From NCBI GenBank assembly GCA_002224055.1, contig AZLU01000388.1:1-22315 (forward strand): a stretch of DNA of 22,315 nt. The letters run 5' to 3'. The position numbers and the translations under genes are program-made. The notes under the pieces are model-generated. The model ran no database searches. It was not told where the DNA came from and saw only the letters and a program-made list of their open reading frames with translations. Of this stretch, positions 2,942-20,950 are shown piece by piece (positions within the stretch are counted from its first letter, which is position 1; each line of letters starts with the position of its first letter). Source of the DNA: Pezizomycotina sp. ARF18 (Eukaryota > Ascomycota).

Positions 2942-3230
2942 ATATATAATTAGAAAATATTTAAAGAGTATTTAATATTTAAATACTTTAAGTTATTTAA
3001 TTATTAATCTAACTTTTTTATTTATTTTGCTAAATTTTTATCATAAAATATTAGAATAAACATTTTTTTATATAAAAAATGGAGCTTATTATTTTTAATA
3101 ACTTGTAATAAAAAATTTAGCTATTATGATCTTAAATAAAAGATATATTAATTTTTTATATTTAATATTATTTTTATTATTTTAAATAATTTTTGATGTT
3201 GCCGCAATATACTAAAATTTCCACTATGCC
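2942..3230. other. AT-rich spacer up to a sharp composition boundary
   Basis: Almost pure A/T with homopolymer-like stretches and no coding frame. Composition changes abruptly around 3195-3230 to mixed sequence. It probably marks the edge of the RIP-affected block. No transposon ends were recognised inside. Confidence 0.6.
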
Positions 3231-3667
3231 GTGTCCGGGGATGGTACATTTGGCGACCAGCCGACAAACACGAACAACGGGTAGTAGTCATTATACAAAG
3301 TATATAAATAACGATTTCTTATCCTACTGCAATCAGGAAGCCAGTTCTGTGGTCTTCAAACTAAAATAGAATGCCTGTTAATTAAGGAATATTATACTTA
3401 CAATGGAAAAAAGACAATGTAAAGAATAATGATTACTTAAGTAGTACAATGCAAAATTTCTTAGGACTCGGACGAACAGGTCTCAAGACATTTCATGGAT
3501 CTCGAGTTCGAGCCCGGGCAAGAAGACCAGCACCATTGAGCTTCCAGGTCAATCAATCAATTCCAGCATCTTTTTTTCGGGAGCCAATTCTCAGGCCAGG
3601 ATTTCAATTCAAAACCGCTACACGAATAAGCCTAAAACTCTCAGGTTCCTCCTTAAGAAACAAAATC
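3231..3667. other. Upstream region of the first array copy; no clear gene
   Basis: Mixed-composition sequence. An open frame from 3449 runs into the first array gene, but the inner ATG at 3668 fits the paralogues' N-termini, so the upstream part is more likely leader than protein. A tRNA-sized element with an acceptor-like stem and a TTCGAGC T-loop-like heptamer lies at 3457-3526; see the findings. Confidence 0.4.
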
Positions 3668-3978
3668 ATGAGTGACGACGACACTTTGCACGCTAGGATC
3701 GCTGAGCTAAAAAGGTTGGACGCAAGAATACAGAGATTTCACAGGTATCACTAGAAGCGTTGGCCGATGTCGCTGGAGCAAGCGCCGCGATCGCACAGGC
3801 TAGTGAATTACTACCTTTCTTTAAAGGCAAAGCGCACGGAGCTATGGAAGAAGAGTTGAACAACTGCCTCCATAGGTGGACCACAGCGACCTTACTCGCC
3901 TCTAACTACGCTAAAAGGATAGAGGATATGGAGGAGGAGAAGCAGAAAGTCCGGGCATGGACGACTCGGTTCGGTTAA
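3668..3978 (+). pseudogene. Small coiled-coil array protein, copy 1 (one frameshift)
   Basis: First of a tandem family of roughly 100-residue charged helical proteins that I do not recognise. The ATG at 3668 gives an N-terminus (MSDDDTLHARIAELKRLDAR) that matches copy 4 (MTDNTNARIAALIEQD). After about 26 codons the reading moves by -1 near 3740-3760; the second frame then continues to a TAA at 3976. That part contains SELLPFFKGK, matching EDILPHLEGG of copy 3, and ends in KVRAWTTRFG, matching EIRAWTTEDN of copy 4. The spacing of charged and hydrophobic residues suggests amphipathic helices, with no signal peptide or membrane segment. A TTG at 3760 could start a shorter product but is not a likely fungal start. 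The frameshift may be real decay or an assembly error. Confidence 0.6.
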
Positions 3979-4949
3979 AGGTTAAAGATACTGAGGAGGA
4001 CGTTCCTTCATATCATTAGATAGATTCTAGTACATTTGAGGTTTTGCCTTATTATCTACGTTGTTTGAACTTTACTCCGATTCTTTTAATTAGCGCGAAG
4101 GTAATATTGGTTTTGATTAACTTAACTCTGTTTATAATAAACATCCGAGTCCACTAAGCTGCATACGCCCGAGTCGCATCAAGTTACAGGAATTTGTTAA
4201 TATACGTCTTAGGTTGAGTTTTCGCCACATTATAAGACGGGTGATGTTGAGGATATTACTACATTCCAAGACTGCATTTAGTTACGTTGGACGCCTTCAC
4301 AAGCTACCTGACAACAGGTAGCTAGTCTTTTTTGCTCGAAGCTGTATCCTAAGCTTGAGCTCATCAAGTACACTTACGTATCTACGGACAACATCTTCCT
4401 TATCATGCTATCGTAGATATGGATTAAGAATCACGAGTTACAATGACTGATCTCACCGTTCTTTCAAAATTCGGACCTATAATTTCTCCGTACTCAGACA
4501 TACGGATGTTATAAAAAAACACATTCGATCATATGAAGGACTCGGAGGTTTGAAGATGGACAATTGAATAAAGTAATAATCGATCAAAGTGGCACAAAGA
4601 AATTTGTTCGATATAGTCGAGTCCCGTTTTGAAAGGTTCTTCTTGAGCTTGAGTATATACTGCTACGTGAAGAGATAAGCCTAGCGCCCTTAAGTTGCAC
4701 ATCTGGTTTCTCAAATTCACCGAGCAGTAGGCGTCTCGGGTGCCTAGGATATTTATAACAGGTCGGCAAGGAACCTCCACGCCTTTCAATCCAATCTCCA
4801 ACATACACCTTTCTTCATTTCAGCCATAAAATATCTTTCATAACACACACACGCTCGCACTCACACTCCCACACATACATACATACATACATATCTCCCA
4901 GATAATCTTAAAAACCAAAAAAATCAGGCAGATCTTTAGAAAAGGGAAA
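3979..4949. other. Intergenic; 3' half is a duplicated upstream block
   Basis: No convincing gene. From about 4630 the sequence is related to the region upstream of copy 3 (about 5490-5793). The clearest part is 4707-4741 against 5571-5605: 27 of 35 positions identical and all eight differences transitions. Open frames here lack family resemblance and overlap this duplicated leader. Confidence 0.55.
4842..4893. repeat. CA/CATA microsatellite upstream of copy 2
   Basis: A run of CA dinucleotides passing into repeated ACAT tetranucleotides, about 60-100 bases before the copy 2 ATG. The equivalent position before copy 3 (5725-5766) carries CA and ACGC repeats, so the repeat was probably part of the duplicated unit and expanded differently. 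Confidence 0.8.
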
Positions 4950-5242
4950 ATGCCGGCTATTTCGGAGACAAGAGACAAAATAAAGAAGCTGGATAAAGAG
5001 ACGGCGATGTATTGGACGGGCCACAAGCAGTCGACAGACATCATGAAGCGATTGAAGGAAAGGATCGAGGAGATGGAGGAGATATTGCCCAGCTCAGGGG
5101 CCAAAGTTTCAACGACATGGCCGACCAACTGGAACAACATGAGCGCCGGTATGAGCGCGAGGAAAAGAACGCTTCATTTTATTTCAAAAAGATGAAGGAC
5201 GCGGAGAAGAAAAGGAGCGAAATAATTTTTGGCTCATTGTGA
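4950..5242 (+). pseudogene. Small coiled-coil array protein, copy 2 (one frameshift)
   Basis: The ATG at 4950, in an AAAATG context, begins MPAISETRDKIKKLDKETAM and continues through IKERIEEMEEILP-like heptads. The frame moves by -1 at about 5090 and goes on as FNDMADQLEQHERRYEREEK, ending KKRSEIIFGSL at a TGA (5240-5242). Copy 3 reads ATATTGCCCC at the equivalent place where copy 2 has ATATTGCCC, so the break is explained by loss of one C from a run of four. Joined across the break the product is about 97 residues, without cysteine, signal peptide or membrane segment, and strongly helix-forming. The alternative reading after the break ends at 5195 and loses all family resemblance. Function unknown. 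Confidence 0.65.
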
Positions 5243-5793
5243 GCCACTGTGGCTGTACATTAAAATATTCTAACTTAATAAGAACATCCGATTATCAATA
5301 ATATCATTAACGTTTACCAGTCTTTACCGCATCCATAAACTTGAAAATATCCAGATCCAGAGACGTATCACAAAAGTCGTTCAATCATCCATCAAATGAA
5401 TATGCTTTGAAAAGAAGTGAATATGATAATAAATAATGCAAAGCGCAAAGAGGATGTAGATCTGTTACGTGTACTCTCTCCATTGCGAGAGCCTTTTCTT
5501 GAGCCTGAGAACAGTTTAAGACGAGAACTCTCTACGTACGGGGGACAATCGCGGGTTCGCAACACGGGCATTTCTCAAGTTTGCTGAGCAGCAAGCACCT
5601 CGGGTCCTCTCAGCAATGCTTTAAAGGTTTGGCGTAGCGGAGCTTCTCTGCTGATTGGCAACCCAATCCCCTGCATTCATCATTATTCAAAAGTTATACT
5701 GAACTAGGAATCGCTTTTGAAATTACACACACACACACATACACGCACGCACGCACGCACAAACATACCAGACCTATCTTTATAGAAAGAACC
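5243..5793. other. Intergenic; duplicated upstream block of copy 3
   Basis: No gene seen. About 5490-5793 is the counterpart of the block before copy 2. The region next to the ATG is also alike: CTATCTTTATAGAAAGAACC here against GATCTTTAGAAAAGGGAAA before copy 2. The shared leader suggests that promoter and gene were duplicated together. Confidence 0.55.
5725..5766. repeat. CA/ACGC microsatellite upstream of copy 3
   Basis: A CA repeat followed by four ACGC units, ending about 30 bases before the ATG at 5794. It corresponds in position to the CA/ACAT repeat before copy 2. Confidence 0.8.
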
Positions 5794-6104
5794 ATGAGTG
5801 AGGATACAAACGCCAGGGCTCTCGCAGCTTTGCGGAGATGGGACAATAAGCTAAGGATGTTAGAGAGGGGCTTCGATCAAACGAAAGCCATTTATCGCGA
5901 ACTGAGGCTACAATCGATAGGATGGAGGATATATTGCCCCATCTAGAGGGGGGAAAGCGCGAGGCTATGGCTCAAGAGCTAGAAGAATGCGGCGCTCGGT
6001 GTAAGGTCCAGAAGAAGATTGTTTTGTGGTATAAAAGGCAAATAGAAAAGACTCAGCGAGAAAGAACTAGATTTATCTCTAGGTCACTAAATGCTCAGCA
6101 TTAG
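5794..6104 (+). pseudogene. Small coiled-coil array protein, copy 3 (one frameshift)
   Basis: The ATG at 5794 (ACCATG context) begins MSEDTNARALAALRRWDNKL, close to the start of copy 4. After AIYRE (about 5900) the reading must move by -1 to continue as TEATIDRMEDILPHLEGGK, QELEECGARCKVQKK, and KRQIEKTQRERTRFI, ending at a TAG (6102-6104). The whole is about 103 residues. The central MEDILP-x-L-E-G motif is the best family landmark: EMEEILP in copy 2, ASELLPFFKG in copy 1, EMIANLEGEE in copy 4. An ATG at 5922 would give a 60-residue C-terminal piece if the break is real. No cofactor or catalytic motif is visible. Confidence 0.62.
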
Positions 6105-6615
6105 AGGGATACAAATTTATACTAGCACTCATTTTGAATGTATTTTATCCAGAATGACTTCAGCGAAGCTATTGTTAGAGCTTTAATATACAATATTTCT
6201 TCGCGAGTTGCATGCATTTTGATTAAAGAGTGAACGAAGAGGCATGTCTGGGAATTCTATGCTCGATAATGGAGATAAGCCCTTCGCCAACCCTCCAACA
6301 TCTCCTCCAGCTTACGGAGACAGTGCGTATCGTGGATGCACCAGGTTTCCCAACGCCCCAGGTCATTCAACCGTCTTTTTTTTAAGGATACGTCTTATCG
6401 AGGTTTACGCTAACTTCACTTCCTGTTAGCTTTTTAGATTTCAAACCAGAGGTTTTCTCTTAAAACTTGCTATACCCTCACTTTATCGGAGGAAAGCAAG
6501 TCCTCGACTAATACTTCCTGCTTCCATTAGAGAGGCTCATTTGCTCCGGATCCTTTTGTGAGAATGGCTTCAGTAACCCTTCTCGCTACAGCCCGAACGG
6601 AGGCTATCCCTAACA

Positions 6616-6822
6616 ATGGCGGGTGGTATAATCACCGCAATACTTGCAGATGATCGCTGAACCGTCGAAGGGCAGTTCGCACTCGCTAAGAGAGACTGAT
6701 GTTAAGTCAAAGAAAAGGCAATAAAAACAGAAAAGGAACAAAGGTCGCACGTTAAATTAAAACTACGAAAACTTGAAACCAAGAAAATAGGTGGAATATT
6801 ATCTCAAGTACAACTAATGTAG
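6616..6822 (+). pseudogene. Possible decayed array copy between copies 3 and 4
   Basis: From the ATG at 6616 one frame reads MAGGIITAILADDR, TVEGQFALAKRD, then VKEKAIKTEKEQRSHVKLKL and RKLETKKIGGILSQVQ, separated by three in-frame stops (two TGA, one TAA). The charged helical character and the C-terminal K-L-x-x-x-x-K-K-x-x-x-I pattern recall copy 2 (KDAEKKRSEIIFGSL). Its position fits the array: starts are 844, 822, 770 and 754 bases apart from copy 2 to copy 5. Identity with the other copies is low and membership is an inference; it could be unrelated lysine-rich sequence. Confidence 0.35.
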
Positions 6823-6980
6823 CCTGTGGACCATACCAAAATGTGCTCACACACAATCCCTACACTTATACATACAGGTAAACAAACTTGAAGCCTTTAG
6901 GAGAATAAGGATATGTTACACCGTATCCATGATGAGAATATATTACCAATTAGTTTTTTCTCAGCAGCAAACTTGTCCTC

Positions 6981-7211
6981 CTAGCCCTTCTTCAAACCCA
7001 CCCAGGAATCATGAGTGGGTTTATGCCCTCTAAAACGGTAGAAAATCACCGCGGACCTGAAGCCAATATTGTATATAACATGTATACAACTGTTGTCGGT
7101 GACAAATCCGTTTAATACTGCAGAACAAGCTTGAAATAATCCATAGGCATGAATGCATACGCCTTTATCCAAATCCACTATAAAGCTAAGCCGTCTATGC
7201 CGGCTTGTCAA
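6981..7211 (-). CDS. Doubtful small hypothetical frame
   Basis: An open frame of 76 codons on the minus strand that begins at a TTG, not an ATG, with a stop two codons upstream. It contains three cysteines, aromatic residues and an ending of HDSWVGLKKG. It does not resemble the array family and I do not recognise it. It lies wholly in the gap between two array copies and may be chance; it is listed because that gap would otherwise be empty. Confidence 0.15.
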   Translation of the reverse strand: MTSRHRRLSFIVDLDKGVCIHAYGLFQACSAVLNGFVTDNSCIHVIYNIGFRSAVIFYRFRGHKPTHDSWVGLKKG

Positions 7212-7385
7212 TTGCTACAGTAACTAGCTCCACAACTCTTCTCGATCTATATACTAAAGGCACCTTTTACTTCTTTGGTTTGCAACTGGGAAAATCAAAT
7301 CCGTAATTCAAGGTAAACCCAAATCAAATAAAAAGGAAAAAAGAAAGAGAAAGCCTTAGTACTCCTACATAACTCTGAAGACGAG

Positions 7386-7685
7386 ATGACCGACAACACT
7401 AACGCCAGGATCGCCGCACTGATAGAGCAGGACGAGCTTATAAAAATATATCACAGGGCTAGACTCGGAGGAAGAATGGAGCAACTTGAGGAGCAGATCA
7501 AAGTCAGCAACGAAATGATAGCGAATCTCGAGGGCGAGGAGCGACAAGCCGTGAAAGACGCGCAGAAATTGGACATCGAGGAGTTAGACAGGTGCAATAA
7601 GAGCGCTGAGTTATAACACAGATTGATCGAAGGTTGCGAACATAGAAAACAGGAAATCAGAGCGTGGACGACGGAAGATAATTGA
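7386..7685 (+). pseudogene. Small coiled-coil array protein, copy 4 (in frame, one internal stop)
   Basis: The best preserved member. The ATG at 7386 opens MTDNTNARIAALIEQDELIK, followed by RMEQLEEQIKVSNEMIANLE and KLDIEELDRCNKSAEL up to a TAA at 7614-7616. The same frame then continues as HRLIEGCEHRKQEIRAWTTE to a TGA at 7683-7685. Because RAWTT also ends copy 1, the TAA is a premature stop; CAA to TAA, a RIP-type change, would explain it. Read through, the protein is 99 residues. The truncated 76-residue form could still be made. Heptad-like hydrophobic spacing and the balance of Glu and Lys predict a coiled coil. The leader is AG-rich and unlike those of copies 2 and 3. Confidence 0.68.
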
Positions 7686-8139
7686 GGAGTGTTTCTTTAC
7701 TACTGTGTTGTTCGACCACATGTGTTGTTACACGAAAAACGCAAAAGTAGGGATAGGCTGTATAAACCTTTGATATATCCTATGGGTATTTCATTCACTT
7801 TTAACATCACTACTGGAAAATTAAATGTACGAAAAGGAAAAAATAATAATAATAATAATGAATATTAAGTATATACTTTTCTTTTGGCCGAATTGTATAC
7901 GTGGAATCGAGGTGACAACATACCACTAACACAAGCTTAAGGTGATTTATTGAGAGCTAGAGCTTGAGCGAAAGCTTTGGTTTCTTATACCTGAACCTCA
8001 AGTATTTAAGAATTGAATTTGGGTACAATGCACGTGTATAAGTAAATAGCTTATATAGGTGCGGAGAACCCGCCTAGTGTATCGAACAACTCGATCCAAG
8101 ACTAATTTACCGACGATTATCAGATCACCAACTCTAAGG
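7686..8139. other. Intergenic between copies 4 and 5
   Basis: No gene seen. An AAT trinucleotide repeat lies at about 7845-7859. TATA-like sequences (GTATAAGTAAAT and CTTATATAGG, about 8036-8057) lie some 80-100 bases before the copy 5 ATG and could be its promoter. Confidence 0.4.
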
Positions 8140-8459
8140 ATGACCACGGTCAAAGAAGAGATACAGAACCTTTTGGCTGAAGACGATAAGATCGCGAAGC
8201 TGCAGGAGTTAGACAAGGAGCTGGAGAGGTAGTCAAAGCCCACAGTTATATGGCAGCGGAGATCGAAAAGATTCGGAAGGTTATTACAACATTAAACGAA
8301 AGGATGTCAGGCTCCAAGAGAGGAGAAGGAAGACGCAAAGGCAGAGCTAAAGAAGCAAGAGGACGTCATCAGGGTGGCCATAAACGTCGCCAACGAGATT
8401 TCCACCCAATACAAATGGATCAACTGAAGAAGCGGTATTACGCGGCGCAGGAACCATAA
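8140..8459 (+). pseudogene. Small coiled-coil array protein, copy 5 (several frameshifts)
   Basis: The ATG at 8140 opens MTTVKEEIQNLLAEDDKIAK and LQELDKELER, then meets a TAG at 8230. A -1 shift continues as MAAEIEKIRKVITTLNERMS. A +1 shift near 8310 gives PREEKEDAKAELKKQEDVIR and VAINVANEISTQYKWIN. A further -1 shift near 8420 gives QLKKRYYAAQEP to a TAA (8457-8459). Each alternative reading between these points loses the heptad pattern and becomes Arg/Gly-rich, which is why the switches were chosen. The total is about 105 residues, as for the other copies. The single 69-codon frame from 8250 is partly out of frame and should not be taken as the protein. Confidence 0.55.
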
Positions 8460-9282
8460 GCCCTTGATCTCGAGGCCGACAGCTTTGCTATGTCACCGGT
8501 ATCTGTGGAAATTGATAGCATATTCCTGAGTATCCAATTAGTATCGATCAGAATATCTTCTGGGGTTCCCGATAGCTTAACGTAGCAGATAGTATTCCAG
8601 AACGTTAAACTAGAAGCTACATCGATTAAAAAATATTCTGGTCAAAAGAATACCAGTATGTCGGTAATGAAGCGAAAATATTATGAAAATGCCGGGCGTA
8701 TCACATTAATCGAGTAAACGTATAATCCTGATGTAGATCGGGTAATACGGGCATGCGAAATCATCCAGAAGAAAAGAAAAAACTTTAATATCAGCTTGGT
8801 TTCCGAAACCTTTCATCGATATGGCCTTCTTGTCTCGAGGAAAAGCCGTTGTCGACGCGGTGTGAATTCGGCTCCATCCTTGATCCGACTAGTAGAATAA
8901 AAGTCCTTGGAGTCAATCCAGTGATACCTAGACAACATCCCTTAGAGGTAGTTTAGCGTAGAGTATTGCTAAATGAACTGAAGCTCTGAGTACACCAATA
9001 ATGTGTTCAATGGCTCGCTATATCACGAATGATATTTGCTTTGAAATCACAGGACCCTTCAAAGTGATTATCCTCAGATTGAGAAAGCCCTCAAGCTTAA
9101 GAGGCCTGAATATTTGTACCGGAGCTGGTGGCCCGGAACTGGCAAATATTCTTAGCCAGATCAGATCTCGAGCTCGATATATTACTAAACATCCAATCCG
9201 CAAGACAATATCTCCAGCTCTCGCAAATATTGCCGGGGAAAAGAAAAAAGTCTAAACGAGAACAAAAATAAAACCCACAAAA
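8460..9282. other. Intergenic between copies 5 and 6
   Basis: No gene supported. Open frames around 9001-9255 have no family resemblance and low-information composition. A small perfect hairpin (CTGGC and GCCAG around an 11-base loop) lies at about 9138-9158. The distance between starts (1143) is larger than elsewhere in this half of the array, so a fully decayed copy may once have been here, but I cannot see it. Confidence 0.4.
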
Positions 9283-9574
9283 ATGGAAGCCCCAGAATCC
9301 CGAAACTGTGACGATTAGATACCTTGATGAGGAGAGTTCTTCAAGTATCTGATAACGGCAACGACCAGGTCCTCCGCGTAACCGGTCTAATCGAAGCTAT
9401 GGGGAGAGACATGCCCCGCTTCGAGGCGACGCCCAGAAGCAGGCTATTGCAAGGGTAAAGGAACTGCTCCACTACAGGAAGGAACAAAACGAAATTGTGT
9501 TGCGGTGCCGCGATGACATCCGACCAATAGCTCACAAAGAGCAAAAGGAGGCAGCGCGGCAATATCATCCTTAA
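9283..9574 (+). pseudogene. Small coiled-coil array protein, copy 6 (two frameshifts)
   Basis: The ATG at 9283 (AAAATG context) opens MEAPESRN and stops at a TAG (9316) unless the frame moves by -1. It then reads RLDTLMRRVLQVSDNGNDQV and GLIEAMGRDMPRFE. A second -1 shift near 9430 gives AQKQAIARVKELLHYRKEQN, EIVLRCRDDIRPIAHKEQKE and AARQYHP, ending at a TAA (9572-9574). The pattern I-E-A-M-x-x-x-x-P-x-F-E before the second helix corresponds to MEDILPHLEG of copy 3, and KEQNEIVLRCRDDI to VQKKIVLWYKRQI. Length across the breaks is about 96 residues, the family size. Confidence 0.6.
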
Positions 9575-10241
9575 GAATCTTTTTAGCATAACCTTCTTGT
9601 GACCGGTTTGTTATTAATGTCTCAACAGATCGGTAGTAATTATTTCGCTCTTAGCATTTCTTCGATTTCATCGTGGACTTAGTCTCGATATTGTCAAGCC
9701 ATCACTGGGCCTCCAAGTTAATGAATTGTATTGTAATTATGCTCACAATAGCAAAATGAATGGCCTGCCTTCCTAACACTTCATATTTTCCCTTGATTAC
9801 GTCGCGGCGCACACGACCTCCTTGCACGTAATTGCGCCGTGAAATACACTCAGCAGGAAACTGCTAGAATATTTGCGGAGGTATTCATACGTGGTCAAAG
9901 TGTCCTGTTGCATGAAAACTGGCGCAAAAGGCTCGTCGCCTGGCTCCGCTCGTAGCCACTTCAGCTGCTTTGCCAATAAATGCATGCGCTGAGTCGTTTA
10001 ATGGTCCAAAGTGACACAGCTTTTCAAATATGCTGTGTATCCTGTAGAACTCGTCGTGACATCTCAGTCATCGGACAGGAACAGGCCGCCCTACGCGAGG
10101 CAGTGTCTCGGCTTCGGGAGAAACCTCTACAGTGTAACGGTTGGTTGATTATGCCGAGCACACTTGACTTGGAACATGTCTTAAACTGCCCTGTAGAACC
10201 GCTTTCACGGCGTCCGACTTATGTCTCCAGTAGATGATGGG
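9575..10241. other. Region without a supported gene
   Basis: Short frames exist on both strands, including a plus-strand frame from 9980 and a minus-strand frame ending at 9797. They overlap one another, start inside each other's coding sense, and match nothing I recognise. Composition is mixed and not RIP-like. Confidence 0.4.
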
Positions 10242-10338: not shown

Positions 10339-10752
10339 ATGCAGTTCATTACCATTTTCTCGTTGGCTGCCGCGCATGCACTGTCTCCGCTTCACCAGTG
10401 CCAGCACCAACCGGTACCCACCGTTCCGAAGGGGAAAATCGTGGACATCGTTCTGGTGAAAAATTCAATCCCTTCCAGCGACTCCGATATTGCTCTAAAC
10501 AATGCCTACGGCAGATACACTCCTTCAACTGTTATTTCACGCTCAAGGTTCAGTCCACAGGAAATACCCGCCGAGTCTCGAAGACATCGAGAATTGGGAC
10601 CAAACGCGCCGTCGAGTCAGAAGAGCACTAAGAAGAAGGTGATTTCTCATTCGAAGCTCGGTCCGCAGGGATTCTCGGAGCCAACCTTTGAGGATGTCGA
10701 GAATGGAACCAAGGGAACACGACTCCGGCTCAAAAGGGTATCCAGAAGATGA
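10339..10752 (+). CDS. Small predicted secreted protein with an imperfect internal repeat
   Basis: The ATG at 10339 is preferred over an in-frame GTG at 10327 because it opens a typical signal peptide, MQFITIFSLAAAHALS, with cleavage likely after AHA or ALS. The mature part (about 120 residues) is basic and Ser/Pro/Lys-rich, with one Cys. The DNA contains two related copies of about 80 bases: one from GTTATTTCACGCTCAAG (about 10530) and one from GTGATTTCTCATTCGAAG (about 10640). The repeats are matched best in different frames: LEDIENWDQ in one and FEDVENGTK in the other. The open frame ends RLKRVSRR at a TGA (10750-10752), while two other frames continue with plausible sequence to about 10800. 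A frameshift is therefore likely and the C-terminus uncertain. Role unknown; a secreted effector or a Kex2-processed peptide precursor are possibilities only. Confidence 0.5.
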   Translation: MQFITIFSLAAAHALSPLHQCQHQPVPTVPKGKIVDIVLVKNSIPSSDSDIALNNAYGRYTPSTVISRSRFSPQEIPAESRRHRELGPNAPSSQKSTKKKVISHSKLGPQGFSEPTFEDVENGTKGTRLRLKRVSRR

Positions 10753-12381: not shown

Positions 12382-13740
12382 TTACAGAGCGAAAGCACGA
12401 GGACGGCGAGACCAGCAACAAAGGTGAAGCTGGCCTTGAGACGGAAGCAGCACCAGTGTACGGGGGAGGAGCCTCAGGCGAGGTACGTGGTGGGGGCAGC
12501 GGGGACAGCGACCGACGACGGGCAAGGGTCGTAGCCGGGCCAGGGGCCGGAGCAGGACCCTCAGTGTGAACAGCAACGGGGTCTCGCAAGGACTGGTACC
12601 GGACCGGGGCCTCAGTGGGGGTGGCAGTCTCGCACGGGATGTGATCGGGTAGGGCGACCGTGGGGCAAGCCGGGTGCTTGAAGTGGTTGTAGAAGTCGTT
12701 GTCTGGAAGCAGAACTGGGGAGAGTAGACGACATCACCAGTGTCCTTGCAGGTAACCTTGTAACCGTAACCGTACAGGCCACCGGTAGGAGGAAGGTTGG
12801 ACGGCGGGTCCACTCGTAGGAACCGGTGTTATCGCAGTCGTCGTGGACGGTGGTATAGTGGTGGCAGTCATCACCACCCTTACCGTAGACGACTTCGATC
12901 TTGACCTTCTTGCCCTTGAATCCGGACCAGCTGATCTTGGACGGCTTGCCGCACTCTACGGACTCACCCTTGGTAGGGTAAGAAATGTCATAGCCAGAAG
13001 GCCGAGTGTAACCAGACGGTGGTAGTCGTAACCGTAGTTGTCTGGCTGTCCGTAGTCGTTCTTGGCGGGTAAGACGGTTGTACGGGTGAGAATCGGTATC
13101 GTAATCACCAGTGTAGCTGTTGTCATCGTAAGGCTTGCTGTCGGAGTAGTCAGACTGCGGGGGGTACTCCTTGGGGGGCTCGTAACGCCAGTGGGGTAGT
13201 AAGGGGTATAGACGGTGGGGCTACCAGCCGGCGGGGCAGGGCTGCCAGCCGCGGGGCAGGGCTGCCGGCCGGAGGGCAGGGCTGCCGGCCGGAGGGGCAG
13301 GCTACCAGCCGCGGGGCAGGCTGCCAGCCGGCGGGGCAGGGCTGCCAGCTGGTGGGCAGGGCTACCAGCTGGTGGTGCAGGGCTACCGGTGGCGGTGCTC
13401 CACCGCTGGGGTCAGCCGGAGTACCTTTTCCTTGAGCGGAGTTAGGATCGAGACCGGGCTTAGTGGACCATTCTCTGCAGAGCGGGGAGAAGAAATGTTA
13501 ATACACACCTGGTCTGCAGCTAGGGGGAGATCATTGGGTCTGCGCCAATGCAATTGATGTCACACCTCCGGCAGAGGTAGTAAGGGTGCTTGGAGAACCC
13601 TGACAAGAAAAAAAAAAAAACATTAGCACTTACCAATGGTAGATGGAGGCCCAAATCAGCGCGGCGCTGGAACTCACCAGCAGGAGAGCGGCAGCCTGAG
13701 CGGCGACGGCGAAAGCGGCAACGGCAAGAACAGCGCGCAT
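12382..13740 (-). CDS. GPI-anchored, Pro-rich cell-wall protein with Kre9/KNH-like domain
   Basis: Minus-strand gene opening at 13740 with a signal peptide, MRAVLAVAAFAVAAQAA. Two short GT-AG introns are possible: 13600-13633 (GTAAGT...TTGTCAG) and 13475-13508 (GTGTGT, ATTAAC, CTGCAG). A Pro-rich stalk follows, built from A-G-S-P-A-P-P units, then a Tyr/Pro/Asp-rich part. Next comes a beta-rich domain: SYPTKGESVECGKPSKISW, KKVKIEVVYGKGGDDCHH, NTGSYEW, GGLYGYGYKVTCKDTGDVVY. This fits the Ser-Thr-rich GPI-anchored Kre9/KNH family (PF10342). A Pro/Thr/Ala tail ends TGAAS plus the hydrophobic run FTFVAGLAVLVLSL, a GPI signal; the TAA is at 12382-12384. At least four single-base breaks interrupt the frame. 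The likely role is in wall assembly or as a surface structural protein, beta-1,6-glucan being the classical Kre9 link. Exact exon ends are uncertain. Confidence 0.65.
13221..13382 (-). repeat. 21-base minisatellite coding the AGSPAPP stalk
   Basis: Eight tandem units of 21, 20, 20, 20, 19, 21, 20 and 21 bases, read on + as CTGCCAGCCGGCGGGGCAGGG with variants, plus a diverged ninth. In the sense direction a 21-base unit gives Ala-Gly-Ser-Pro-Ala-Pro-Pro. Almost every length change is loss of one base from a G run (GGGG to GGG, GGG to GG). Confidence 0.85.
13600..13633 (-). other. Putative intron 1 of the wall-protein gene
   Basis: In the sense direction it begins GTAAGTGCTAATG, with CTAAT as a branch-site-like element, runs through a T tract of 13 and ends CTTGTCAG. 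It is 34 bases here, shorter than typical fungal introns. An alternative donor, GTGAGT, lies upstream at about 13667. Confidence 0.45.
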
Positions 13741-16380
13741 TTTGATCGTTAGAATTAGGTATTAAAAGGGGATTCCTTAAAATAAAAAGCAAAGAAGGTA
13801 TTAGTAGCGTTGAGAAGAACGTGAGGTGACTGAAGAGTCGGACGTAAAAATTAAAGAATGGATGCGCAAAGAGCGACTGAGGTCAACACTGCTGAAGAGA
13901 GAGTGGATGATGGTGAGAAAAGAGAAAAAAAGAGAGAGACTGGAGGGGGAGTCTCGCTGCAATATATGCACTTTTTTTCCCCCTATATTACAATCGTATA
14001 GCAGGACTGTAATCATTAGAGTGTGCCTGCTCTCTTCTCACAGACCCGCCAGGTCTCTCTCTTTTTGCCATCCTGCGTCTGCGCAACTGACTGCGTCCAG
14101 ACGTTCAATCCGTATGTGCAGCAAGGCCCTATGCACGGTATCGCAACCCTTTCCGATTACAGAACCAAGTACTGTAAAGGTAGGTAGGGGTACATAAATC
14201 GAGTCGCGTAGTACGCGCCAAAGAAAGGAAAAACAAACCACATGGTTGTTTGAGCCTCCTTAGTAAAAGAATGGAAAAGGGCACCAATCAGGGATAAGCG
14301 GGTTGTCGAGAACTCGAGTAAACCCAGATGTCCCTTCTGAGCGGTGAATGGCTGGCGGGGTACTTGCCGCCCACCTTATCGACTATGTCCCTCAGAAGCT
14401 GCAATTGGAGGTACATTCGGTACATCTCGGTAGGTACCAGAGGTACCGGTCCAGCTCACGGCTATTCCTGTTTGTTTAATTTTAAAAAAAAAAAAAAAAA
14501 AAAAAAACAATTTCTTTTCAAAAAGCCCGAGACCTCTTTGACTCTTCGCCCTAGTAAATTAGTATGGCATGTTTGTTTTTTCCTGTCTGTTAACAGTCGC
14601 GATGTCTCTTTTTTCTTCTGGTTAATTTTTACGACGGTGGCTACCGTGGGAAATGAGATTTTCTCCTGAATTCCCGCATTAGTGGCCTTGTCATCGCGTT
14701 ATCCTTCTCTATCTTTTGCCTTGTTAACCTAACATGAACAGTCTCCACTTCTTATCCAGGAGTCTTGAAGTCTTGAAGTACCGCTAGGTTGTCCAGCCCA
14801 AAGGGAGAGAGACATAAAAAAAAAAAAAAAAAAGACTCATGTAAGGCTCCATCGGAAGTACCCTTCTTATCCCCAAATTTGGTTAAGAAGTAGGTATCTC
14901 GGCTATTCCCAAACCTGATTGTCGCTCTAATCCCCCGTAAAGGAGCCAAAAAAAAAAAAAAAAAAAGGGTAAATCACACTTGCGGATTGCTTGTAGGGTA
15001 CTTTTTTTCTTTTTTCTTTACTAACGACAACAACACTCTCTCTTATCACAAGCGGTCTGGGCAATGAAAGCGGTCTATGGGCACTTATTTTTCTCAGACT
15101 TGCGATCGGTCGAAAAAGCACCCTGAAATTAAAGGTTGGAGGCCAGGTCATGAAATTTGGTGGCGTTCTCCACTTCAGCGTTTCGCAGCCTGTATCTGAA
15201 AAGGGTCTACCGACACGAGCAGTATCTCTTCCCCTGAACTTTGCTGCGAGGGTGACTTGTCGAGCTCGTCGCTAGCAGGAACAGCTCTTTAGACTTTGGG
15301 ACCTCTCTCGATGTCGATGTTGAGCAGGAAGGATTCAATTTCGAACCAATTTCGATTGATTGATTGATTGATTGTTTTTTTTCCCTTCGAAATGAGTACC
15401 CTCCAGCCGAGAATTGTGCCAAAACTACCTCATCTCCTTTAATCGTGGGCACAAAAAAAAAAAAAAAAAAAAAAAAAAAGACACGCAATAACAGAATGTT
15501 GGCAATCCGGTTCCCAAAATTTTTGCTCTTTTTATTCAAACTCAGTAACAGATAGGAGGAAATAACTCTCACGTTCTCTATCAATCACGCAAGCAATCTT
15601 GATAATTGTTTGTCCCCATGGAAATGAAAAAGCAGCTCGTAGGGCTTGTCATATATACGTAAGCGTCCAACATCTCTCATTAAAACAACAATAGCATTAA
15701 TAAGTGGAAGGCTTATGTAGAGGAGAGCGTCTCTTCGGTTCAAAGGGTGTGCAGCGAGCGTGCATGTGGGCAAGGGTAAATTAAAACCCCGTCGTCAAAA
15801 AGCCCTTCGAGTTCCAGCACTCTCATTTGTCATCCTTGCCCTGCGATACGGTAGGAACCGAATTTTTCGTCTCCTATCTTTCCACCCTTGTTAGCTACCA
15901 TCGCCCTTCCAATAACTCGAGGTTAGGATCACCTGCTCTGCTGCTACTTACTTCCCCTTCACAGAACAACCGTTGTGTGCAATGGATCTCAAAAGAACGA
16001 GGAACCAGACCTTCCTGGTTTCAGCAGCCGTCAATCTTAAAATTGCACGCAAAGAAAGAGAAAGAGACCAACCCAGCCAAACCCCAATTCGAATCACAAT
16101 TTCGGTATTTTAAAAATAGTTCCCTTGCCTTTGTTTGTTTATCCCACGAGGTCTATCGATACGGAACGAAGTGGCTGGCGAGAGACGAGCGAGAGCGACG
16201 AACGTGGATTTGCTTCCTCTTCGTGAACCGAAATTACGGCCGTAAGGGCAGAGCGCGTTGCCTAAGCAGATGCAAAGGACGAATGGGAGCGCTCGAGTGT
16301 GATATCGATTAATTAAAGCCCCCATGTCCGCACTAAACTGTTTCGAATAAATCAAAAAAAAAAATTAATAAATAAATAAA
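13741..16380. other. Gene-free region rich in poly-A runs; likely regulatory
   Basis: The first few hundred bases are probably the promoter and leader of the minus-strand wall-protein gene. The rest has many short frames on both strands, none with recognisable motifs. A runs of 24 (14484-14507), 18 (14816-14833), 19 (14948-14966) and 27 (15453-15479) occur, and a GATT repeat at about 15354-15374. No tRNA or snRNA seen. Confidence 0.5.
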
Positions 16381-17780
16381 TTGAATGAAATGGGTAAAAT
16401 ATCGCCTCTTTCAACAGAGTTTCTCTCGCTTTCTTTTGCTTTCTGGTGTTTGTTTTTTGCTTCCTTTTTCCCACGCAGATTACCTCTGTCATCTTGGTCT
16501 AAACGACCCAAAAAAGTACGAAGGAAAAGAAATTTTAAAATTAAACGATTAGGGGGCGAGCTTACGTTAAGCGTTAAGAAAGAACCCTCCTTTGCTGGCT
16601 TTCGTTCGATCTCTAGTAGATTCTCTACCCGCCAGCACCGCCTCTTTTTTCGACCCCTCGTACACCTCCACTTTTTTGGGAACCTTTAATCTCATCTTTG
16701 ATATCGTCGTATTTCGTTTTTTTATTGTGCCAGGAAAAAGCTATGTAAGATGAGTGATCGTCATATTGCGTTTTGTCTCGTTCGCCGTTTATCAGTTTTT
16801 CAATATCGTTGTTTATTATTGTAAGACTTCCTCTTTTTTTTTTTCTTTTTTTTTTTTTTTTTTGCCGGCGGTTCCTGAAATCCGCCATCTCGCCGTCGCG
16901 TGCCTTTTTCCACCCACCGGATCGTGACGCTCTGGCGACATTATGAGGCTTGACCAAGCATTTTGATTCTGATTCCTTTTCTTTTCTTTTCTTTTCCCAG
17001 GCGGCTTCGAATCGGCACGCAAGTAGGTATTACATTACACAACTCGAACCGGTCCGTTGGAGCGCTTCCCTTCAATATCATGACTCTCGGTCAAATGCAA
17101 GATGAACAGAGTTGTCGGACAACGTTCGCTCGTTATAAAAAAAAAAAAAACAATAACGTTTTTCCCTTTCGGGCGACAGGGCTGATAGTTACTCCTTTTC
17201 CTTGATATTTAGTATCCAGAAAAGAGTTTGATCATATCAGTCGTGGAATGATTCAATTGAACCACGTTCATTTCGAGGTCTCCACGGGGAGGATGCAATG
17301 CAGCTGCAGTCAAATATCTAACTGAGGCGCTTTTGCTTGTCCTGCTGGCTCCAGCGCTCGTAAGTCACGTTGTCGCCTTAGTCTGTGGAGTTCCGCTCTC
17401 GACGATGAAAGCCAAAAAGGCCTGGACGTGCTAGACGAAAAGGGGATGTGGATTCTTGTTCAGCGGTTCCTGCGGACGCCAAGAGGTTTTATCCCTCGCT
17501 CCTTTTTTTATCCTGGCTAGTCCCCAATGAACCTTCGGGTTTTCCGATCGAGAGATTTTATCATCTCAATGATCCAAGAATAGGAATACCGCGAGCGTTT
17601 GCCTTCTTCTTCTTCTTCTTGCTTCTTTGAGCTGGATTGCTCATTGTTATGTTTAGTTTGGATAAGGTTATATTTTTTCTTTGGAGTTGAATGTCGTGAC
17701 AAATGTTTCTGTGAGAGCAATGGAGAGTTCGCCTCCGTATTGCAATCTTGGAATTAACTTTCCCTCTTCTTGCAGATGTG
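16381..17780 (+). promoter_or_regulatory. Pyrimidine-rich stretch, possible promoter/leader of an unrecognised plus-strand transcript
   Basis: Long T and CT tracts on the plus strand (for example 16834-16863 and CTTTT repeats at 16976-16999) resemble the pyrimidine-rich sequence before transcription starts in filamentous fungi. Splice-like signals occur: CTCGTAAGT at 17357-17365 and CTCTTCTTGCAG ending at 17775 directly before an ATG. The frame after that ATG is short and unconvincing, so a non-coding or spliced-leader transcript is possible. The inference is weak. Confidence 0.25.
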
Positions 17781-19800
17781 GGCAAGGATACGCTTCTTGC
17801 CTTCAATTTTCTACTGCAAGTCTTTGGCTCCATGCACACCCGTAACATCCGCCGAGGCTTTTCGCAGCCTTGCTTTTTGGCTGGCGTAGAAATTCCTCAA
17901 GCTAATTTAGATCGGGACTTTGGGGGGCGTGGAAACTTCCGGACGCCAAAGAAAAAAGCCCTCCATCGTGTCGGAATCGTCGCTTTCAGTTCCGACGACG
18001 GAATAAGTTATAACTCCCTCAACTTCGATCTCCTTTTCTCTCGACGGCTGAGGCTGCCTTCTCTGACGAAAGAATAGATCGTGACTTCTGCAACTGCACC
18101 CCTTCGTGTCTCCAATCCAGAACGTTTCTAACCGAGAAGAAATAATCAGGTACTGCACCTCAAAGACTCGCTTGAAAGGAGTAGCAGACCTTTGGTTCAG
18201 TTGTTTGCAGGCTCCTGTCCGGAAATTACCTGCAGCTCCCTCGACTGTTTTGAGACAAATTTCTCTTCCCTGATAAGCTTTTTTCTGCAGTGCAGGATGC
18301 ATCACGCCAGAGGCGTTTGAGGTGTCCACTTATGTCTTGGTCAGCCTTATGAAAGGGAAATATAACCGACCCCTATTTCCGCATGAAAAAATTTTCTACT
18401 GTTGGAGGAAATCTGAGTGACGGCGTTCTCCATCTTCAAAGAAGCAAACTTGAAGCCTTTTGATCCAAGGACTGTCTGTCACTGGAGGCTTATGACTGGC
18501 TTGAAGCTCTTTGTTCGTGCTCCTCAAAGTTACCAATCGGGAAATGCAAATATTCCACATTTGATTGTCGCATGCTTCGTGGAGATTTGGGTGGAGGGAT
18601 CGACAGGTCAATCGTTCGTTTGAACACGATAGACCTGTCTCGTAACTCCAATGAGAAACGCGGTGTTTGACTCTCTGCTCAATGCTTCCCTTTTCCTCAT
18701 CCGTAAAAAGAATCAACGCAGATTGCAGATACGACGTGCTTCGTACCCGTGCTGCTACCGGCCCTGCTGAGCTTCATCTCCGAATCCTCCTCAGGAAGTA
18801 AAAATGGTTGCTCCCGAAAATCTAGATCTGTGAAACAATGAAATGAAATCCCATGAGCAGAGCTTCCCCAGAATAGATGTCCAAATCACTTATCCCCCGC
18901 GAAAACATGATACTCCAGATTCGCAAGGCCAGATAAAGAGACAAACGCTGCTGAACGTGACCGTTGATGTCGGACTTTTTGCTAGAACCGGCCGTACTCG
19001 ATTGATAGCTAATCACCGCGGCCGCGAGGATTTGCGATGCGGTAATAGCGATGCGCGCTCGCCCCAAGATGAGCGGAAAAAACACTTCGTAGCTCTGCCG
19101 TTTCAATCCCTGGACGGCATGAATGTGGAGAGACGGTGAAAACCTGGTCGTAGATAGGTGATTCGGCCATCCATCGGTTCCGAAACGGTCCTTTCCTTTG
19201 TCCGACTCCGATGCCATACATCGAGCTGCCTGTATTGTAGACCTCGTTAGCTAACCTGCCCTCAACTGAGCCCACCACTGCTTTGAATTCTCGTGCCCCT
19301 CTTCCGAGCCTCCGCTCATGAGTAACTACCGCGATCAACCAACGACCAACCATACTCATCCCTCCTCCAGTTCTCGTTGTTCCTTTCCTTTCCTTTTGGC
19401 TCCTGTTGGTATTGCTTGAGATCCTTTCTGTCGCTTTGCTGCTTCTGTCGTTTACCTCCGGTTCGGTAGTGTTTCGTTGGAGTGGAGCTCGTTCCAGCCG
19501 CCGTGTAAGCTGCCGTACAGCGGTGAACGACAAGCGCAGGCGTACTGCAGCTCTTGGTCTGTGCTCTTCGTGACGACGGCGATGACGATGATGATAGCTC
19601 TGATAATGACAATGTTGAATTGATGGACGAGAGGGATCCGTGAATGACGATGGTGATGAGGACAGTTGTTTCTGGAATCATCGGGATGGGAATATCAGCG
19701 AGGATTAAATACTACCATACAGCCGTTTTATTTTTTTTTTCTTGTTATTTTTTAATTCTGGTTTATTATTATGGTAGCCCTTGGTCGATGCTGCCTGTTC
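17781..19800. other. Region with overlapping doubtful frames
   Basis: Several frames of 100-174 codons overlap on both strands. The best-looking are on minus: 18822-19217, with a fairly hydrophobic segment around SQILAAAVISY, and 18396-18716 downstream of it; 19009-19533 overlaps the first in another frame. I recognise no domain, start context or intron linking them. The CT-rich plus strand at 19360-19450 yields a Leu-rich frame that is probably compositional. A minus-strand gene broken by indels is possible. Confidence 0.3.
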
Positions 19801-19984
19801 GGATCAATTGCTGTATCTCTAAACACTAGAAATGAAGCTTAATTGTAACATCACGAGATACTTATTATATATGTCCTAAATAGTAGTTAGAAAGAAAGAT
19901 AGGGAGCGTTCCCTAGCTCGGTAGTATTCTATACCTGCAGTGGCCTTCAGCGATAGCTCGAGCTATAGCTATAAAGCTATGTAC

Positions 19985-20741
19985 GCAGATAATGTAAGTA
20001 GTCTTCTGTGAATACTCAGGGCCTGTTCTTGTAGAGCTCACTTCGGATCTTCAGGTCCTTTAGGAGATGATATGCATCTGGATCTGTTACTTAGCGATGA
20101 TGCAATGTTGTATCATTGCCGAGTCCAGCGTAAGCCTTTGATGTTATTGTACTGTATCTGGTCATCGTAATCTTGGACATCGATGATATGTAGCTTAAGC
20201 TTGCTTTGATTTCTACAGCATAACTCGAGAGCCAGTTCAAGTGCCAACCCTCCTAGACGACATTGAATGAGTCCGATCCGAATTGCGATGGCCAGTCCCT
20301 CGTGTATCAGGGTTAAGGGGTAAGAATATGAACGCCATGCTGACTCGGAGTGAAATCAGCAGAGGCATGTTATCTTAGCCCTCATACAGTTACACGTTAC
20401 GCTATTATAGCATAGCATCGGCTTGGTTCACTCTCTTGATTCGTATATATAGATGTATGACGAGCCATCGATATCCCCACCTCTAGCGATCTTGAAAGTG
20501 TGTCTCCACGTATTAACTCAACGGGTGCAGCTAGGGCTTGGTCCATGATCATTGAACTGAAGCCCTCAATGCGACCGTTTGCTTACTAGGGATCAGACGC
20601 AGCACTAGTGACCTGTGGTCGAGTAATATCACCGGTAAAATGAAAGCTGGTTGCTCGCACCAATCCTAAACCTAAAGAGCCAGTAATAAATAGGCTCTCA
20701 TTCGATTCAAGTATTCTTTAGAGCCCTGTGATAACAAGTTC
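19985..20741 (-). pseudogene. Decayed unrecognised gene in three minus-strand frames
   Basis: Three successive minus-strand segments look like protein. 20741-20397 contains FITGSLGLGLVRATSFHFTG, a TAG-TAA pair at DP, then ANGRIEGFSSMIMDQALAAP and VELIRGDTLSRSLEVGISMA. 20355-20113 (80 codons, no Met) contains IHEGLAIAIRIGLIQCRLGG and KLKLHIIDVQDYDDQIQYNN. About 20105-19985 contains DPDAYHLLKDLKIRSELYKN and VFTEDYLHYLRT around a TGA. The internal TAG/TAA stops would arise from CAG/CAA by C-to-T change. Two frame changes separate the parts. I recognise no family; a host gene remnant or a transposon-borne gene are both possible. It may extend to about 20880. Confidence 0.45.
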
Positions 20742-20924
20742 TCAATGGGCATGGCACAAAAGCCTCAGATATATGTATCACTCATAGATTATCACAAGAA
20801 AAATTTCCCCTCGTATTCCTGGAATATATTTGATGATGATGATGATGCTAATTTGAGGTTTGATCGCACGGTTTGCAATATACTCAGGTAGCTACCCCCA
20901 TCATGATATCAACACGGAAATTGC

Positions 20925-20950
20925 AAAAAAAAAAAAAAAAAAAAAAAAAA
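20925..20950. repeat. Poly-A run of 26
   Basis: An uninterrupted run of A between the two minus-strand coding remnants. A short GATGAT repeat lies about 90 bases to its left. On the minus strand it is a T tract downstream of the gene ending at 21044. Confidence 0.85.

Follow-up and report, generated by a model that had tools for sequence, protein, structure and literature searches.

A local tandem family of small genes for predicted helical proteins beside a mutated repeat in Pezizomycotina sp. ARF18

A contig of the ascomycete Pezizomycotina sp. ARF18 (AZLU01000388.1, here C388) carries, between positions 3668 and 9574, a row of short open frames with charged, heptad-like translations. This raises the question of whether these frames belong to one gene family and, if so, whether that family is maintained, decaying or rapidly diversifying. 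The window analysed is this whole contig (22,315 nucleotides), one of 408 in an assembly of 46,361,250 bases. A preliminary description of the DNA had proposed six or seven head-to-tail copies; the analysis supports a local family of small helical proteins, arranged in tandem, old and strongly diverged, for four or five of these copies. Copies 1–4 are firmly members of a tandem paralogous gene family. As the overall explanation, we consider it probable, with considerable room for doubt, that the array is a lineage-restricted family of small soluble helical hairpins that arose by old local duplication, is or was constrained at the protein level, and acts by pairing.

Homology among the copies

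Four homologous copies lie head to tail on the + strand, starting at 3668, 4950, 5794 and 7386. Copy 1 (3668–3978) is made of an N-terminal part at 3668–3751 and a C-terminal part at about 3730–3975 in a different frame. Copy 2 (4950–5242) is divided in the same manner into 4950–5090 and 5090–5239, and copy 3 (5794–6104) into 5794–5910 and 5901–6101, each with its two parts in different frames. Copy 4 (7386–7685) is open until an in-frame TAA at 7614–7616, after which a conserved tail (7617–7682) continues in the same frame.

The six claimed copies other than the one at 6616 were cut into 13 pieces, none of them joined across a frame change, which gave 70 cross-copy pairs. Against plain shuffles, 8 pairs scored above z 3. 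Because the pieces have composition and heptads in common, a second test was run with 2000 shuffles per pair in which each residue was kept in its heptad register, and 9 of the 70 pairs exceeded z 2.5. No shuffle was as good as the real alignment for five pairs of N-terminal (n) or C-terminal (c) pieces, numbered by copy: c1–c3 (score 64), c1–c4 (56), c2–c3 (51), c1–c2 (48) and n1–n4 (42). With reversed sequences, scores for these five pairs fell to 18–22, as against 42–64 forward. Weaker likeness was seen for n3–n4 and n1–n3 (9 of 2000 shuffles as good in each case) and for n1–n5 (14 of 2000). The c1–n2 pair (44 of 2000) was discarded, since its reversed control reached 38 against 35 forward. 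Copy 2 enters the family through its C-terminal part and through upstream DNA that it has in common with copy 3.

Four sequence profiles were run on every stop-to-stop frame of at least 20 residues in the window, 727 in all, and on those of the reversed window for control; at most 12 matches were listed for each profile. The first non-member found by the C-terminal profile of copies 1–3 was the copy 4 tail, at an expect value (E) of 0.0017, followed by E 0.71, with a best control value of 0.48. The N-terminal profile of copies 1–4 ranked the copy at 8140 highest among non-members (E 0.024, against 0.97 in the control), and that of copies 1, 3 and 4 placed an unrelated frame there (E 0.5).

The remaining claimed copies fared less well. 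Copy 5 (8140–8459, + strand) is a probable member by its N-terminus only: support is confined to its first 30 codons, namely the n1–n5 pair and the one N-terminal profile, and the frame changes thereafter. Its other pieces (c5 and m5), like n6 and c6, gave no pair above z 2.5. The claimed copy at 9283–9574 (+ strand) consists of open pieces in several frames; none of its pairs passed the shuffle test, and it was absent among the matches listed for all four profiles. For the claimed copy at 6616, the profiles were the sole test, and the frames that they listed around 6777 and 6901 had E values no better than 1.3. The preliminary description had held that a lack of scores above those of shuffled sequences would refute the family; such a lack was found for 9283, and scores well above shuffles were found for copies 1–4.

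The shared motifs are looser than first described. The N-terminal pattern M-x-x-x-T-x-A-R-I-A-x-L is exact in copy 4 only, and copies 1 and 3 require inserted residues to fit it. The central landmark E-x-I-L-P-x-L-E-G is complete in copy 3 only; copy 1 reads ELLPFFKG, copy 4 reads EMIANLEG, and in copy 2 the landmark spans a frame jump. The ending RAWTT is present in copies 1 and 4 as claimed, in copy 4 after the in-frame TAA. The N-termini of copies 1–5 are polar and charged and, judged by eye, lack a hydrophobic stretch.

Searches of the organism's own genome returned little beyond the array itself. Protein searches with c3, c1 and n4 gave self matches and one chance-level match (contig C220, E 0.396), and as they left even the sister copies in the window unlisted, they carry little weight on whether further members exist. 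DNA searches with 3500–4400, 4400–6200 and 6200–9700 matched the window alone and are blind to likeness at the level seen between copies 2 and 3. When the N-terminal motif was written as a DNA pattern, it matched two places elsewhere and none in the window; arginine had been encoded too narrowly, which makes the result uninformative.

Frame breaks, coding signal and age

None of the copies forms a single open frame, and the preliminary description had mentioned frame-corrected proteins merely in passing. In copies 1, 2, 3 and 5 the passage from the N-terminal part to the next is a one-step frame change, of the same sense in all, and the later parts of copy 5 contain at least two frame changes as read. 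Copy 4 keeps a single frame, in which the TAA divides the first 76 codons from the conserved tail. Overall, copies 1–4 have about one break per 300-base copy.

Taken at face value, such breaks suggest a decaying pseudogene cluster, in which the jumps and stops would be real mutations and the likeness among copies a remnant of an older functional family. The more broken appearance of copy 5 and of the 9283 region relative to copies 1–3 fits this account, as does the finding, given below, that between copies 2 and 3 the coding sequence is conserved no better than the DNA upstream of it. A yardstick is provided by the conventional actin gene on contig C382, in which the frame shifts by one or two bases at four points within about 930 coding bases; the gene also has a single normal intron of 99 bases. 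In its profile alignment, neighbouring blocks overlap in the DNA but sit in different frames. A second actin-type gene (contig C274) likewise has two blocks in different frames with a 7-base overlap. The best PDB match of an actin piece was chain V of 8a5d, a Chaetomium protein; a search for the ribosomal marker uL2 gave a single partial match, which was left aside.

As actin is broken at a similar rate, breaks are to be expected in intact genes of this assembly, and those in copies 1–3 tell little about decay. They are most likely assembly errors, and an insufficiently polished long-read assembly would account for the frame jumps. Homopolymer errors that change reading frames are described for nanopore assemblies of a fungus in one study (PMC7500977). 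Assembly error is less easily invoked for the TAA within copy 4 and the multiple breaks of copy 5, which may be real. Since a gene as conserved as actin has frame jumps, claims of pseudogenes or frameshifts in this genome call for caution.

Two other sources of the frame changes were considered and rejected. Introns do not fit copies 1–3, whose differing-frame parts abut or overlap, by eye, with no spare DNA between them; the single donor–acceptor pair worked out, for copy 1, gives the wrong frame. Programmed frameshifting in copies 1, 2, 3 and 5 was set aside since the jump positions differ and no common slippery site was seen by eye. The common direction of the array jumps requires no special mechanism, as three of the four actin jumps share a direction with each other too.

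The aligned frames also retain a coding signal. In protein-guided codon alignments, the third position was the least conserved in six of seven pairs, and the pooled identities at positions 1, 2 and 3 were 0.535, 0.57 and 0.394 (four pairs, 142 codons; these pairs reuse pieces and hence are not independent). Weaker conservation of third positions makes the array frames look coding and argues against a decaying cluster, though past constraint could explain it. Weighing both sides, we regard outright decay as an unlikely explanation of the array, albeit one to be taken seriously, and retain the constrained helical family as the preferred reading.

Upstream DNA was compared in 28 block pairs with 100 shuffles each. 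The region upstream of copy 2 (4707–4896, + strand, with a CA-rich end) is homologous to that upstream of copy 3 (5571–5779, + strand): in their local DNA alignment 130 positions are identical and 60 mismatched, with 19 gaps (z 16.3, above all 100 shuffles). The coding DNA of the two copies shows 104 identities and 56 mismatches over 160 aligned bases, a likeness (104/160) about equal to that upstream (130/190). From these alignments, copies 2 and 3 look like the outcome of an old tandem duplication of a gene plus its promoter, and their divergence fits weak constraint and age alone. The only other upstream pair to beat all of its 100 shuffles, u1–u5 (z 7.1), aligns over 58 A-rich bases and was disregarded as low-complexity sequence.

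Predicted fold and database relatives

An 84-residue piece of copy 3, modelled from a five-row alignment, was predicted to form two helices (residues 2–31 and 35–82) with a mean predicted local distance difference test score (pLDDT) of 92.5 and a predicted template modelling score (pTM) of 0.68. The predicted hairpin turns at LEG, within the central landmark of the preliminary description. Foldseek gave 231 matches under E 10 in the PDB, none at or below E 0.001, and the 50 of these that were listed offered generic hairpins only. The N-terminal domains of ING4 and ING5 and the protein HP0062 (4afl, 5me8, 3fx7) are, like the predicted copy 3 piece, two-helix antiparallel hairpins, with template modelling scores (TM-scores) of 0.62–0.77 by query length; they differ from it in having only 14–15% sequence identity and Foldseek E values above 0.001. 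Antiparallel coiled-coil hairpins are common, and a TM-score likeness to such a model is uninformative on ancestry.

Pfam scans covered 10 and 8 proteins, mostly array pieces, and an NCBIfam scan covered 7 proteins, all but one of which were pieces of the array. No array piece scored above a family cut-off in Pfam-A or NCBIfam and sub-cut-off matches were few; the pieces were scanned separately, and short ones may escape such scans. The copy 3 piece at 5850–6101 weakly matched Lebercilin (PF15619; 20.7 bits, E 0.00034), in what is a generic coiled-coil likeness: the score lies under the curated cut-off of 34.3 bits, and no other scanned piece matched. A profile search of the PDB returned TraC as its sole match (E 0.48), which we do not believe; the last rows of the query alignment were poorly aligned. 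The earlier statement that no described family fits is supported as far as these libraries go, with nothing above cut-off in Pfam or NCBIfam and nothing significant in the PDB. A limited literature search, drawing on partial texts, turned up no paper evidently on such a family, which is no proof that the family is unpublished.

Lineage-restricted tandem gene families occur in fungal genomes, in regions that are poor in genes and rich in transposons. The array resembles these in being a tandem set of small orphan genes beside an element mutated by repeat-induced point mutation (RIP); it differs in having no secretion signal by eye and in being known here from the sequence of one assembly.

The preferred reading can be set out as follows. 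An ancestral gene would have given rise to the copies by old local duplication followed by strong divergence. Each product would be a soluble, almost wholly alpha-helical protein of about 95–105 residues, whose helical N-terminal part leads into a pair of antiparallel helices with their turn at LEG. The hairpin would then pair with itself, with a sister copy or with a partner protein. The fold, the pairing, the lineage restriction and any function are what we infer; roles in self-recognition, partner inhibition or as an effector are speculation, as the preliminary description itself had called them.

The neighbouring repeat and the standing of the array

The array lies beside a dispersed repeat at 1–2941, cut by the contig end. 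The repeat has 43 other matches, of which 18 carry nearly the whole of it at 81–85% identity and 13 further ones carry only about 2706–2941 (40 of 61 candidates scored). Its RIP indices are strongly shifted (TpA/ApT 1.44–1.53; (CpA+TpG)/(ApC+GpT) 0.07–0.16), and together with the dispersed copies these confirm the RIP-ruined transposon that had been proposed. Matches to 2706–2941 alone are what is expected of the terminal repeat of a long terminal repeat (LTR) element; that segment appears to behave as such, and the repeat is probably an LTR element. As the contig starts inside it, the assembly was interrupted here by a repeat, and the known left neighbourhood of the array extends no further. 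The array itself carries no RIP signature: in seven 1-kb windows over 3001–10000, TpA/ApT was 0.66–1.04 and (CpA+TpG)/(ApC+GpT) 1.01–1.45.

This setting bears on the suggestion that the array is a family of recognition or antagonist proteins, acting in self-recognition, in drive or in an effector-like way, that diversifies rapidly and is maintained beside transposons. The tandem layout, the adjoining RIP-mutated repeat and the strong divergence (long C-terminal parts 23–27% identical in amino acids) are in line with it. Against it, copies 2 and 3 show no excess of coding over flanking divergence, so faster protein evolution is unsupported; the array is free of the RIP signature, no hydrophobic N-terminal stretch is seen by eye, and the Pfam, NCBIfam and PDB searches gave no relative of such a role. 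The diversifying selection or fast-evolving compartment suggested in the preliminary description therefore finds no backing here, and we judge a diversifying family very improbable. The still more basic objection, that copies 1–4 are alike merely as charged helical sequences, can draw on the Lebercilin score on copy 3 and on an all-against-all BLAST no better than its reversed control, but it is highly improbable and largely refuted for these copies by the five pairs unmatched in 2000 register-preserving shuffles, their low reversed scores and the upstream non-coding DNA common to copies 2 and 3; it stands for 9283 and 6616.

Several observations count against the constrained helical family that we favour. 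In the BLAST comparison of the 727 frames, the family pairs reached E 0.005 at best (range 0.005–0.08), values that unrelated frames and the reversed-window control also reached. The n2 piece of copy 2 had no significant pair with other N-terminal pieces in the register-preserving test, and neither copy 2 nor copy 5 was among the matches listed for the profile built from n1, n3 and n4. In the codon alignments, whose pooled pairs overlap as stated, n1–n4 was the exception in which the third position was not the least conserved. The first 17 residues of the folded copy 3 piece precede the family frame. The copy 4 piece (76 residues, single sequence) was modelled as a single long helix that lacks a turn, and its five models differ (mean pLDDT 94.9, 92.3, 68.4, 67.4 and 59.9). 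Finally, given the stop in copy 4 and the breaks in copy 5, some copies may truly be dead.

Elsewhere in the window, a 137-codon open frame at 10339–10752 (+ strand) has a hydrophobic, signal-like start by eye (MQFITIFSLAAAHA) and no Pfam or NCBIfam match. A Kre9/KNH-like domain lies at 12615–13497 on the - strand (25.3 bits, cut-off 24.6), adjoined by a 20-base tandem repeat of 8.2 copies at 13218–13384; this locus perhaps encodes a repeat-bearing cell-wall protein, its frames apparently also broken. The domain, together with the RIP signature and the short actin intron, suits a filamentous fungus. Eight runs of 13–27 A or T occur within 13608–20950, and the rest of the window contains no run as long as 12. 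These runs may be real or polishing artefacts, of a kind reported for nanopore assemblies in the study cited above (PMC7500977).

Taken together, the array appears to be real but of an ordinary kind, a small local family of predicted helical hairpins for which the libraries searched offer no relative; none of the results hints at an exotic role. The case illustrates that an orphan family confined to one locus is recognisable even where an assembly is rich in errors, and that breaks in reading frames need calibration on a housekeeping gene before claims of pseudogenes or fast evolution are made. That the diverged hairpins pair in specific combinations, as a lineage-confined recognition or antagonist system under selection for difference, seems very improbable. 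If the genes are expressed and vary among strains, the array would offer a small system for studying how pairing diverges among helical-hairpin paralogues.

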